The notes under the pieces are model-generated. The model was not told the DNA's origin, did no database searches, and worked only from the letters and a program-made list of their open reading frames with translations. The translations under genes and the position numbers were made by a program. A stretch of 64,000 nt of DNA from Spirosoma sp. KCTC 42546. GTDB lineage: Bacteria; Bacteroidota; Bacteroidia; Cytophagales; Spirosomataceae. Positions 24,067-45,314 of the stretch are shown here, one piece after another. The stretch covers positions 434,001-498,000 of the forward strand of contig NZ_CP041360.1 in the NCBI RefSeq assembly GCF_006965485.1. The letters are read 5' to 3'. Numbering within the stretch: position 1 is the stretch's first letter; each line of letters starts with the position of its first letter.

Positions 24067-25362
24067 TTACGTCAACTGGTTTATGTGAACGACTTTGGGG
24101 TTTCGGGTTAGCAAATGGATAATTCCATACGCAATTAGGTAGGTACATCCACAAACAGTGAACAGTACGTTATAGCCACCAGCTAAATTCCCGGCTGCTT
24201 TATAGGTATCCAACAAACTGCCAACCAGAATAGGAAACAGGATGCCACCTACAGCCCCCGCCATACCGGCAATCCCCGCAGCCGAGCTGACCGCCTGTTT
24301 GGGAAACAGATCAGAGGCCAGGGTAAATACGTTGGTGGCCCAGGCCTGGTGCACAGCAACGGCCAGACTTATCAGCCCGACGGCGACCCAAACACTGGTG
24401 GCAAACTGCGTTAAAATAATGGATAACTCTAAAAAGGCAAAGACTAACAGCACTAGTTTTCGGGCTTTCAAAGTAGGCCAGCCGCGTTTGATAAGCCACG
24501 AGGATAAGGCTCCGCCACCAATGCTGCCAACGGTTGTGGCCGTGTATATTAACATGAGCTCCAGGCTCGGTTTCTTGAGGTCTAATTGAAACGACGAGGA
24601 GAAATAGGAAGGTAGCCAGAACAGAAAAAACCAGTAAATAGGGTCAATCAGGCCTTTGCCGGTAATGAGTGCCCACGTTTGTGGCAGGGTGAATAACCTG
24701 GCCCATTTTATGGCTACTTTCCCCTCGGTTTCTGTTTCCTGTCCGCTGATGATGTAGGCGTATTCGTCGGCAGATAATCGTTTTTGTCGGGCTGGTATAT
24801 CGTAGAAAATAAGCCAGAAAAATAGCCACACAAAGCCTAACGCCCCCGTAATCCAGAAGACTTCCTGCCAGCCGTAGTGCGTTAAAATCCAGGGCACAAT
24901 GAGTAACGCTGCCACGACACCAATACTGGTTCCGGCATTGAATAGGCCAGTTGCTAAAGCCCGCTCTTTCTGCGGAAACCATTCCGCCACCGTTTTTACA
25001 GCTGCGGGGTAATTACCGGCTTCGCCCAGGCCTAACCCAACGCGGGCCACGCCAAACCCAAAAGCCGAGCGGGCCAGCGCGTGAAGCATCCCGGCCACAC
25101 TCCACCAGATAATCGTAACAGAGTACCCTAGTTTTGTTCCTACTTTATCAACAAACCAGCCAACCAGCAGTAGACCAATGGCATAAGCTGCTGTAAAGGC
25201 GATTACGATACGGGCGAAATCGGTTTCAGTCCAGCTAAATTCTTTCTCCAGAATGGGCTTTAATAAACCAATTATCTGCCGATCAAGATAATTGATCGTT
25301 GTGGCGGCAAACAATAAAAAAACAATGAACCAGCGATAATTCCTTAGTTTAAAATTGAGCAT
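24067..25362 (-). CDS. exuT: MFS sugar-acid permease, ExuT/ACS family
   Basis: 431 residues with twelve predicted helices. The start TINYLDRQIIGLLKP is characteristic of the hexuronate/anion:cation symporter family, and GEAGNYPAAVKTVAEWFP is the conserved loop. The family imports hexuronates, galactonate or 2-keto-3-deoxy acids with protons across the inner membrane. It is the last gene of the sugar-acid locus, 70 bp after the aldolase, with a 7-bp microsatellite ending 6 bp before its ATG. If the three dehydratases are periplasmic, the likely cargo is 2-keto-3-deoxy-galactonate/gluconate; that is inference. Confidence 0.85.
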   Translation of the reverse strand: MLNFKLRNYRWFIVFLLFAATTINYLDRQIIGLLKPILEKEFSWTETDFARIVIAFTAAYAIGLLLVGWFVDKVGTKLGYSVTIIWWSVAGMLHALARSAFGFGVARVGLGLGEAGNYPAAVKTVAEWFPQKERALATGLFNAGTSIGVVAALLIVPWILTHYGWQEVFWITGALGFVWLFFWLIFYDIPARQKRLSADEYAYIISGQETETEGKVAIKWARLFTLPQTWALITGKGLIDPIYWFFLFWLPSYFSSSFQLDLKKPSLELMLIYTATTVGSIGGGALSSWLIKRGWPTLKARKLVLLVFAFLELSIILTQFATSVWVAVGLISLAVAVHQAWATNVFTLASDLFPKQAVSSAAGIAGMAGAVGGILFPILVGSLLDTYKAAGNLAGGYNVLFTVCGCTYLIAYGIIHLLTRNPKVVHINQLT

Positions 25363-25368
25363 TTTATC

Positions 25369-25412
25369 ATGAATGATGAATGATGAATGATGAATGATGA
25401 ATGATGAATGAT
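25369..25412. repeat. Microsatellite (ATGAATG)x6
   Basis: Six full perfect copies of ATGAATG plus two bases. It lies between the aldolase stop and the permease ATG (6 bp away). On the coding strand the unit is CATTCAT. Copy-number slippage would change the spacing in the permease leader. Confidence 0.95.
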
Positions 25413-25432
25413 TTACCTTTTTAGCGCATTCA

Positions 25433-26086
25433 TCACCGCGCGGGTGACCCCGTCATCATTTCGTTGACGAAGTGCTGAAAGTGTTCTTTCAAGCCTGACC
25501 AGTTTTGCTGTTGGATGAGCGTCTTGTCGAATAAGTGGCTACCAATGCCTACGCCATCAGCTCCGGCTTTAAAGTAGGCTGCCATGTTGTGGAGGCTAAT
25601 GCCGCCGGTTGGAATTAGTTTCAACTGATTCATGGGTGCTTTTATGTCTTTAATGTAGTCGGGGCCCAGAGACGTAGCGGGGTAAACTTTTACCATTGAA
25701 GCCCCTAATGACCAGGCCTTATAAATCTCAGTGGGGGTGAATGCGCCGGGAAAAATGGGCACGTTACGTTTTACACAGGCTTTAATCACTTTTTTGTTGA
25801 CAATTGGGGTGACTATAAACTGTGCCCCGGCTTCTAGTGCCCGATCAAGATCCTCCAGCGTACAAACGGTACCTGCGCCAATATTGAGCCCATTAGTAGT
25901 TGTTTCAATTGCCTGTTGAATCATCGTTTCTACCCCCACTGTATTCATGGTTATCTCGATGGTTGTCAGACCAGCTTCCTGGTAAATAGGGAGAATCTGG
26001 CTTACGACCTCAGCCGGGAGTCCTCTGATAATTCCGACGAGCGGTGCTTTTAAATACAATTCCCAGGAGAATGCGTGTTGTGCCAT
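25433..26086 (-). CDS. dgoA: KDPG/KDPGal aldolase (2-dehydro-3-deoxy-6-phospho-sugar acid aldolase)
   Basis: 217 residues, the normal length of class I KDPG/KDPGal aldolases. Visible motifs are LVGIIRGLP at the start, the TIEITMNT strand, GAGTVC, the Schiff-base Lys region MVKVYPATSLG, and PTGGI. It cleaves the 6-phospho-2-keto-3-deoxy acid to pyruvate and glyceraldehyde 3-phosphate in the cytoplasm. It starts 5 bp after dgoK, so the two are one translational unit. Pairing with DgoK favours the galactonate branch (DgoA) over Eda, but sequence alone cannot exclude KDPG use. Confidence 0.87.
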   Translation of the reverse strand: MAQHAFSWELYLKAPLVGIIRGLPAEVVSQILPIYQEAGLTTIEITMNTVGVETMIQQAIETTTNGLNIGAGTVCTLEDLDRALEAGAQFIVTPIVNKKVIKACVKRNVPIFPGAFTPTEIYKAWSLGASMVKVYPATSLGPDYIKDIKAPMNQLKLIPTGGISLHNMAAYFKAGADGVGIGSHLFDKTLIQQQNWSGLKEHFQHFVNEMMTGSPAR

Positions 26087-44225: not shown

Positions 44226-44243
44226 AGATAAGGGATAAATAGG

Positions 44244-44263
44244 TTGCTTAATCGTTTAAGCAA
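44244..44263. promoter_or_regulatory. LacI-type operator O1 TTGCTTAATCGTTTAAGCAA
   Basis: 20-bp near-palindrome (8 of 10 arm positions match, central TCGT), 18 bp before the ATG of the third dehydratase and just downstream of lacI. Its complement shares 15 consecutive bases with the site in the lacI promoter. Confidence 0.75.
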
Positions 44264-44279
44264 ATAGGTAAATAAACTA

Positions 44280-45314
44280 TCAATTCTTGTTTTTTTGTTT
44301 TGAAGAGGCTCTGCTTACCAATTCTGCTGTCATAAGTACCTGCGTGGGTTCATTGAGATGATCTTTCATTTTTTTAACTAATAACGTAACCGCCGTTTTC
44401 CCTAGAAGCCCTATCGGTTGTTTGAGATAGGTAATTGGGCAATAGTAAAGGTCAAATGCTTCGGCCTGTCCAAAACTAACAATGGCCAGATCATCGGGTA
44501 CTTTCAGGCTTAATTCATTGAGGTACTTTAAGCCGTTGATCGCCAGCCCATAAGTAGCAAAAAGCAGGGCATCAACGGGTTGAGTAACGGTGGTTAGCTC
44601 GTTGATGGCAACTCTTACTTCCTGCTCAATGTGATTAATGCGAATTTTTTTCAGCCACTCGTTTATAAATGGTAGTTCATTGTCTTGCAAGGCATCCCGA
44701 TACCCACGTATGCGTTCCTGCATGTGATACATATCGGATTCGTAGGCAATCATCCCAATCCGTTTATAGCCATTGGAAATCAAGTGATCTGTTCCATCAT
44801 AGGCGGCTTTATAGTGATCGGTGGAAACAAAATCCGATTGAATGTCGGGGAAGTACCGGTCCAGCAACACAAACGGAATATGCTTCTCTTTCAACATCAA
44901 TACCTGCTCCGAGGAGCCTTCGGCAGAAACAACAATGAAGCCGTCTACCTGTCGTGTTATCAGTACATCCAGTAAGTCCCGGGATTTATCGGCGTTCTCG
45001 TCCGAACTGCCAATAATAACGGTGTATCCATTTTGCTTTGCTTCGTCTTCTACAATCCGGGCAATGTTGGCAAAGAAAGGGTTCGATATATCCGCGATAA
45101 TCAGGCCAATTGTTTGGGTTTTGCCGCTTCGCAAACTCTTGGCCAGATAATTAGGCTGATAATTTAATTCAGCCGCGATCTGCCTGATTTTACCCGCGAT
45201 CTCCTCACCAACCCGACTTTCTTTCTCCTTCCCATTCAGCACGTAGGAGACTAACGCTGTCGAAACCTGTGCTTTCTGAGCAATATCTTTTAACGAAACT
45301 TTCTTTTTACTCAC
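44280..45314 (-). CDS. LacI-family transcriptional regulator of the sugar-acid locus
   Basis: 344 residues from GTG at 45314 (reads VSKKKVSLKDIAQKAQVS). The LacI helix-turn-helix VSLKDIAQKAQVSTALVSYV and hinge (YQPNYLAKSLRSGKTQTIGL) are followed by a periplasmic-binding-protein-like effector domain. It is the first gene of the minus-strand locus. Operators occur in its own promoter and before two dehydratase genes, so it probably represses the locus until a sugar acid or keto-deoxy intermediate binds; the inducer is unknown. Confidence 0.92.
   Translation of the reverse strand: MSKKKVSLKDIAQKAQVSTALVSYVLNGKEKESRVGEEIAGKIRQIAAELNYQPNYLAKSLRSGKTQTIGLIIADISNPFFANIARIVEDEAKQNGYTVIIGSSDENADKSRDLLDVLITRQVDGFIVVSAEGSSEQVLMLKEKHIPFVLLDRYFPDIQSDFVSTDHYKAAYDGTDHLISNGYKRIGMIAYESDMYHMQERIRGYRDALQDNELPFINEWLKKIRINHIEQEVRVAINELTTVTQPVDALLFATYGLAINGLKYLNELSLKVPDDLAIVSFGQAEAFDLYYCPITYLKQPIGLLGKTAVTLLVKKMKDHLNEPTQVLMTAELVSRASSKQKNKN

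Follow-up and report, generated by a model that had tools for sequence, protein, structure and literature searches.

Three dehydratases with twin-arginine leaders in a Spirosoma operon suggest sugar-acid dehydration outside the inner membrane

The chromosome of the soil-type bacterium Spirosoma sp. KCTC 42546 (a single contig of 8,664,091 bases, NZ_CP041360.1 of assembly GCF_006965485.1) was analysed over a window of 64,000 nucleotides (434001-498000), which contains a locus of 13 minus-strand genes at window positions 24067-45314. Three genes of this locus encode enolase-superfamily dehydratases, a DgoD-type and a ManD-type enzyme and a third one designated Deh3, and each product begins with a leader of the twin-arginine translocation (Tat) type, in which the twin arginine (RR) near the start (SRR, SRR and QRR, respectively) is followed by an uncharged hydrophobic run and an AxA-like site. 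The locus is likely a LacI-controlled operon for an oxidative pathway of the DeLey-Doudoroff type with a periplasmic first half. The genes are listed below in the order of transcription, with the profile and structure matches of their products.

44280..45314, minus strand: LacI-family regulator (PF00356 and PF13377), 54 bp upstream of Deh3
42981..44225, minus strand: Deh3, enolase-superfamily dehydratase, leader MQRRHFLKS...ALAAP (PF02746 and PF13378)
39744..42905, minus strand: SusC-type TonB-dependent transporter 2 (PF13715 and PF07715)
38092..39627, minus strand: SusD-type lipoprotein 2 (PF12771, 291.8 bits)
36602..37957, minus strand: ManD-type dehydratase, perhaps for D-gluconate or D-mannonate, leader SRRDTLKML...AEA (NF043051, 393.5 bits, under the cut-off of 550; 3tw9, 452 bits)
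35186..36433, minus strand: DgoD-type D-galactonate dehydratase, leader SRRSAIQ...SYA (NF010624, 444 bits, cut-off 311; 3rr1, 353 bits)
32138..35128, minus strand: SusC-type TonB-dependent transporter 1 (PF00593 and PF07715)
30564..32036, minus strand: SusD-type lipoprotein 1 (PF14322 and PF07980)
29444..30418, minus strand: mutarotase-fold protein with a Sec-like leader (assigned by fold; TTG start uncertain)
27125..29383, minus strand: pyrroloquinoline quinone (PQQ) dehydrogenase with inserted cytochrome c, probable lipoprotein (ILGC) (PF01011, 628 bits, and PF13442; DLWDRDLP and CSACH motifs)
26092..27117, minus strand: DgoK, 2-keto-3-deoxygalactonate kinase, without signal (PF05035, 203 bits, cut-off 25)
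25433..26086, minus strand: aldolase of the 2-keto-3-deoxy-6-phosphogluconate (KDPG) or 2-keto-3-deoxy-6-phosphogalactonate (KDPGal) type, without signal (over the general KDPG/KHG model TIGR01182, 173.7 bits, cut-off 156; 154.4 bits against a cut-off of 207 for the KDPGal-specific NF006600; 1vlw, 129 bits)
24067..25362, minus strand: DgoT-like transporter of the major facilitator superfamily (MFS), proposed importer of 2-keto-3-deoxy acids (TIGR00893, 240.8 bits, under the cut-off of 395; DgoT 6e9n, 138 bits)

Conservation of the leaders was compared among the best 120 of thousands of matches each for DgoD and Deh3, which are therefore close relatives. Both arginines were identical in 120/120 DgoD relatives, in which the other leader positions averaged 0.66 identity and the core 0.92, and in all 113 Deh3 relatives that aligned at the RR (7/120 did not), with 0.65 for the other leader positions and 0.90 for the core. 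The arginines thus stay constant while the rest of the leader drifts, and the leaders look selected. For the ManD-type enzyme, RR conservation was assessed within 80 loci, the best 80 of 574 confirmed stretches in public genomes (individual loci are numbered L below). For open reading frames (ORFs) of these loci with an identity of 55% or more across at least 80% of the query, RR leaders were present in 77/79 for DgoD, 46/48 for the ManD-type enzyme and 53/53 for Deh3. Two of the four misses lie at contig edges and two in L054, where the DgoD has an RR leader without a start codon and the ManD-type leader is in another frame. Three DgoK ORFs flagged for RR are overlong frames.

A Tat-leader rule (RR, a hydrophobic residue and 13 uncharged hydrophobic residues) was then applied to the same 80 loci. 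The pattern was found in 189/206 enolase-superfamily ORFs and in 25/725 other ORFs of at least 150 amino acids, none of them a flagged DgoK frame; about 15 of these 25 read as genuine Tat leaders. Of the 17 enolase-superfamily ORFs outside the rule, five are contig-edge pieces, four are fragments and one, in L054, has its leader in a different frame. Four more are overlong frames with an internal RR leader (L026, L044, L052, L087), and two have an RR but fall under the threshold (L086, L089). The last, in L053, is clearly leaderless. Vestigial or chance leaders were rejected on the RR invariance and on the contrast of 189/206 with 25/725. One tatC gene is present in the genome.

The catalytic and metal-binding positions are complete in all three enzymes: D226/H228, E252, E278, D301, H328 and E353 in DgoD; D259/H261, E285, E311, H361 and E388 in the ManD-type enzyme; and D219/H221, E245, E271, H321 and E346 in Deh3, with a non-Asp residue at the position of the mandelate racemase (MR)-type dyad Asp in the latter two. 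In our reading, these residues comprise the Asp-X-His motif, three metal ligands (Asp, Glu, Glu) and a His and a Glu further along. The observations of the initial annotation, namely three dehydratases with twin-arginine signals and full metal and catalytic sets in one minus-strand locus, a PQQ dehydrogenase with its own haem in the same locus, and DgoK and an aldolase without signals, were all confirmed.

DgoD scored over the cut-off of the galactonate dehydratase model, and its post-leader part aligns end to end with PDB 3rr1. The ManD-type label given in the initial annotation held at the level of structural relatives, the best of which were 3tw9, 3t6c and 4ihc at about 450 bits; the protein scored under the cut-off of the D-mannonate dehydratase equivalog. 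Enzymes of the 3tw9/3t6c/4ihc group dehydrate D-gluconate or D-mannonate with low activity. In contrast to this subgroup, the protein at 36602-37957 bears a Tat leader, and 11 consecutive residues of 3tw9 have no counterpart in it. Deh3 scored over no equivalog cut-off, and its best PDB relatives were ManD-like at 146 bits, which makes it a distant member. The sub-threshold ManD score and the distance of Deh3 would fit exported enolase-superfamily proteins that act on non-carbohydrate or conjugated acids (e.g., glycosylated or aromatic ones), in which case export would be right and the pathway name wrong. This is most improbable, as DgoD is over the galactonate dehydratase cut-off and the operon includes a DgoK-family kinase and a KDPG/KDPGal-type aldolase.

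In the rest of the genome, 15 MR_MLE proteins were found, nine of which have RR leaders (the three of the operon and those in L090, L093, L094, L095, L096 and L092:4514-5929, further stretches of this genome). Eight of the nine fall within the Tat-leader rule, and the L093 leader is one residue short of it. This set includes the DgoD and all three ManD-type proteins of the genome. The other six have no RR within their first 60 residues, and their best NCBIfam models, all below cut-off, were Ala-Glu epimerase-like (two) and DgcA-racemase-, MenC-, glucarate-dehydratase- and cycloisomerase-like (one each); by these models, no leaderless DgoD or ManD-type paralogue that could feed DgoK is among them. 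The operon copy is the sole DgoK of the genome. With a single DgoK and no leaderless DgoD or ManD-type protein, the 2-keto-3-deoxygalactonate used by DgoK would most simply come from outside the inner membrane. Two UxuA-family proteins are also encoded, and the copy at 7.60 Mb is without a leader.

The combination of a mutarotase-fold protein, a PQQ dehydrogenase with haem and a Tat-ManD occurs again at 6.50 and 2.64 Mb, with identities to the operon copies of 96% and 74% for the ManD-type protein, 62% and 57% for the PQQ dehydrogenase, and 56% and 50% for the mutarotase-fold protein, respectively. The 2.64 Mb set also has a transporter of the SBF (bile-acid/sodium symporter) family. SBF genes, candidates for keto-acid carriers, were observed between the Tat-ManD and PQQ dehydrogenase genes (L096:3984-5096) and, in another locus, beside Tat dehydratases (L075:7148-8230). 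At 7.6 Mb, a Tat dehydratase adjoins a 52%-identical MFS protein and an RraA-family protein with a leader. Tat-exported dehydratases stand beside RraA-family proteins with Sec-like leaders in both L090 and L093 (7.6 and 7.68 Mb), where wholly periplasmic dehydration plus aldol cleavage is possible; an RraA-family gene with a Sec-like leader was also seen in L044 and L046.

By protein search, the nearest named DgoD proteins belong to Spirosoma species (identities up to 95%); the search of genomes gave 96% (L070). Clusters of this kind occur in Spirosoma, Dyadobacter, Runella and Parapedobacter, and in Larkinella without the PQQ gene; the search for the same gene order in related genomes, which had been proposed as a check, thus found the layout kept across genera. 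Co-occurrence was counted in the 52 loci of at least 20 kb for genes within 10 kb of DgoD. Deh3 was present in 47 of these loci and the ManD-type gene in 40, all three dehydratases being together in 39; DgoK was present in 35, the aldolase in 34, the PQQ dehydrogenase in 28, the MFS gene in 24 and the mutarotase-fold gene in 13.

Loci L043, L044, L046, L047 and L075, in records labelled Daejeonella, Pedobacter, Sphingobacterium and unplaced Bacteroidetes, each carry six enolase-superfamily ORFs (some of them fragments), most with Tat leaders. L044:11383-12540 encodes a mannonate dehydratase of the UxuA family (PF03786, 287 bits; Pfam was run on this copy only), which has a Tat-like leader of its own, and L046:13160-14317 agrees with it in gene length and leader. 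Judged by profile and leader, the UxuA-family enzyme is an unrelated family that bears the same predicted export signal. DgoD relatives with RR leaders were also found in metagenome-assembled genomes (MAGs) of Acidobacteriota, Omnitrophota and Planctomycetota, with an adjacent KDPG-type aldolase ORF in L085 and L087.

The PQQ dehydrogenase matched PF01011 with an inserted cytochrome c, the haem motif CSACH being at residue 514. It scored under the cut-off of TIGR03074, the membrane glucose/quinate/shikimate group (484.7 vs 832.65), with the best stretch running from residues 25-498 of the protein to positions 144-616 of the 783 of the model. In the whole genome, 18 stretches match TIGR03074, none of them over the cut-off; they lie in 11 open frames, of which two are weak and one is interrupted by a TAG. 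The protein at 29444-30418 had no Pfam or NCBIfam match and was found to have the galactose-mutarotase beta-sandwich fold. Its H195 and E298 are invariant across 27 sequences and may correspond to His170 and Glu304 of GalM, by motif rather than by residue alignment. The DgoK gene starts 7 bp past the PQQ dehydrogenase gene with a TTG start, or 25 bp past it if the Met at residue 7 is used, and the aldolase gene starts 5 bp past DgoK. Given this tight spacing, the three genes are probably on one transcript. Gaps across the 13 genes are 5-168 bp when the longest ORFs are taken, and a promoter/terminator scan gave terminators at no more than chance level. SusC2 has CarboxypepD_reg and plug domains and no beta-barrel Pfam match at E 1e-5. 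The neighbouring genes for an AMP-binding enzyme (46227) and a beta-lactamase-fold protein (19639) look like ordinary chromosomal genes.

Several observations weigh against the proposed pathway. Concerning the place of dehydration, curated Tat profiles remained sub-threshold for the ManD-type enzyme (TIGR01409, 16.0, cut-off 16.7) and Deh3 (PF10518, 17.4, cut-off 22.7), and DgoD had no match to them. The best PDB relative of the MFS protein is DgoT, and DgoT itself carries galactonate, so the MFS protein could carry the undehydrated acid. A sugar-acid dehydratase of the cytoplasm could be among the two IlvD/EDD proteins of the genome. In a Segetibacter MAG, a leaderless DgoD relative (L053:7108-8256, 46% identical) is encoded in the same locus as a Tat-DgoD. 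An ordinary cytoplasmic DeLey-Doudoroff pathway, with vestigial leaders or retained proteins, galactonate imported by the MFS protein and all steps after oxidation inside, would agree with the weak Tat profiles, with DgoT as the best MFS match and with the cytoplasmic location of characterised DgoD and ManD enzymes. It is nevertheless very unlikely, since the RR is strictly invariant over diverged relatives and such leaders are shared by three different dehydratases and the UxuA-family enzyme of L044 and L046. The L053 relative is full-length and starts exactly at the mature domain, so leaderless forms of DgoD exist and are distinct.

Concerning the coupling to oxidation, the PQQ dehydrogenase is missing from 24 of the 52 loci, and 17, including those of Cyclobacterium and Lunatimonas, lack the PQQ dehydrogenase, DgoK, the aldolase and the MFS gene within 10 kb; oxidation can therefore be separated from dehydration. 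In six Larkinella loci, DgoD (Tat), Deh3, DgoK, the aldolase and the MFS gene are present with no PQQ dehydrogenase within 10 kb of DgoD. Such loci would suit Tat dehydratases that act only on environmental acids taken up by SusCD, with the PQQ dehydrogenase serving something else or only some species and the keto acid still crossing the inner membrane. That none of the 13 operon proteins matched a glycoside hydrolase or lactonase family in profile searches also points this way. We consider this explanation unlikely: the PQQ dehydrogenase gene abuts DgoK in Spirosoma, DgoK is present in 28/28 PQQ-bearing loci, and the set of ManD-type, mutarotase-fold and PQQ dehydrogenase genes recurs, a mutarotase being a fitting partner of an aldose oxidase.

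Three further points count against the proposed pathway. A close DgoD (E 1e-120 or better) was found in only 3/296 sampled Bacteroidota genomes, that of KCTC 42546 included, and the system is thus confined to some families. The mutarotase fold is also found in non-mutarotases, such as cellobiose phosphorylase and YidC. PqqC was not found in this genome or in nine other Bacteroidota genomes (0/10); the same search was positive in an acidobacterial genome (1/6 of the non-Bacteroidota, 1/16 in all). In-house PQQ synthesis was rejected on this result and on PqqE matches that were all sub-cut-off (PqqA, PqqB and PqqD were not sought), and PQQ is presumably scavenged from the environment. According to a study that deals with the PQQ importer PqqU, PQQ biosynthesis genes are absent from Bacteroidota that encode PqqU, scavenging is common, the Bacteroidota PqqU producers are mainly aquatic, and PqqU-less members may use their own PQQ or diffusion (PMC12124388).

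Taken together, these sequences are best read as encoding a DeLey-Doudoroff pathway in which dehydration has been shifted to the outer side of the inner membrane. Two SusCD pairs would bring sugars or sugar acids across the outer membrane, the exported mutarotase-fold protein would supply the right anomer, and the PQQ/haem dehydrogenase would oxidise the aldose and pass electrons to the respiratory chain. The lactone would open to the aldonic acid, and the dehydratases, exported by Tat pre-folded and metal-loaded, would convert the acids (D-galactonate for the DgoD-type, probably D-gluconate or D-mannonate for the ManD-type, and a third acid for Deh3) to 2-keto-3-deoxy acids. These would enter through the DgoT-like MFS protein and be converted by DgoK and the aldolase to pyruvate and glyceraldehyde 3-phosphate. 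Gene content, the leaders and their conservation, the catalytic residues, the leaderless state of DgoK and the aldolase, and co-occurrence are read from the sequences; from these we infer periplasmic location, substrates, electron path and the keto acid as the only compound imported. Sequence support is greatest for export, less for gene linkage and least for the order of events. Dehydration outside the inner membrane, as interpreted in the initial annotation, is therefore supported as far as sequence can test it, the RR invariance, the layout, the nature of the leaderless MR_MLE proteins, the single DgoK and the recurring set all agreeing with it. The exported mutarotase-fold gene (29444-30418), the DgoT-like MFS protein as candidate importer and the PqqC result go beyond that annotation.

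The operon has DgoD, DgoK, a KDPG/KDPGal-type aldolase and a DgoT-like transporter in common with the DeLey-Doudoroff operon dgoRKADT of E. coli. Unlike dgoRKADT, it adds two exported dehydratases, SusCD, the mutarotase-fold protein and the PQQ dehydrogenase, has a LacI-type regulator in place of the GntR-type DgoR, and encodes dehydratases with Tat leaders, which should thus act before import. The cytoplasmic dehydration typical of that pathway appears to be lacking here, as judged from the conserved Tat leader of DgoD. Gcd of Pseudomonas, E. coli and acetic acid bacteria resembles the Spirosoma dehydrogenase in belonging to the PQQ glucose/quinate/shikimate group and, as proposed here, in oxidation outside the inner membrane. 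Gcd is a haem-less membrane protein, and in its case uptake of the acid (or of 2-ketogluconate) comes first and dehydration second, whereas the Spirosoma enzyme is a probable lipoprotein with haem and dehydration is proposed to precede import. In the quinate route of Gluconobacter (PQQ quinate dehydrogenase and 3-dehydroquinate dehydratase), PQQ-dependent oxidation is likewise followed by dehydration, apparently outside the inner membrane. That route uses an AroQ-type enzyme and leads to an aromatic precursor, with no kinase-aldolase branch and no Tat-exported enolase-superfamily enzyme.

No description of an exported sugar-acid dehydratase was found among the entries listed in searches of open-licence literature, as judged by titles and abstract openings, which does not prove absence from print; nor did these searches yield anything joining galactonate dehydratase with periplasm and twin-arginine, or with Spirosoma. 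A study of SAR202 describes many enolase paralogues, and its main text leaves periplasm, PQQ and twin-arginine unmentioned (PMC10444878).

The operon may be one instance of a more widespread chemistry of sugar acids in the periplasm of these bacteria. The nine Tat dehydratases of this genome, the six-gene runs in some Sphingobacteriaceae-type loci and the UxuA-family enzyme with its own Tat leader support the broader proposal, for and against which we find the balance about even, that the periplasm of Cytophagales and Sphingobacteriales is a general Entner-Doudoroff-type compartment. There, the products of Tat dehydratases would go to exported aldolases of the RraA family or to importers of keto acids (DgoT-like MFS or SBF proteins), and the sugar acid would never enter the cytoplasm as such. 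In the usual view of the Entner-Doudoroff and DeLey-Doudoroff pathways, at most oxidation is periplasmic; the acid is then imported and dehydrated in the cytoplasm. If the proposed pathway is true, the transported compound would be the 2-keto-3-deoxy acid, a new substrate for DgoT-like carriers, and a scavenger would turn public sugar acids into a private product. This would also account for the Tat leaders on many proteins annotated as 'mandelate racemase' or 'galactonate dehydratase' in these Bacteroidota and in some Acidobacteriota and Planctomycetota, and the Spirosoma operon offers a place for a direct test of dehydration before import.

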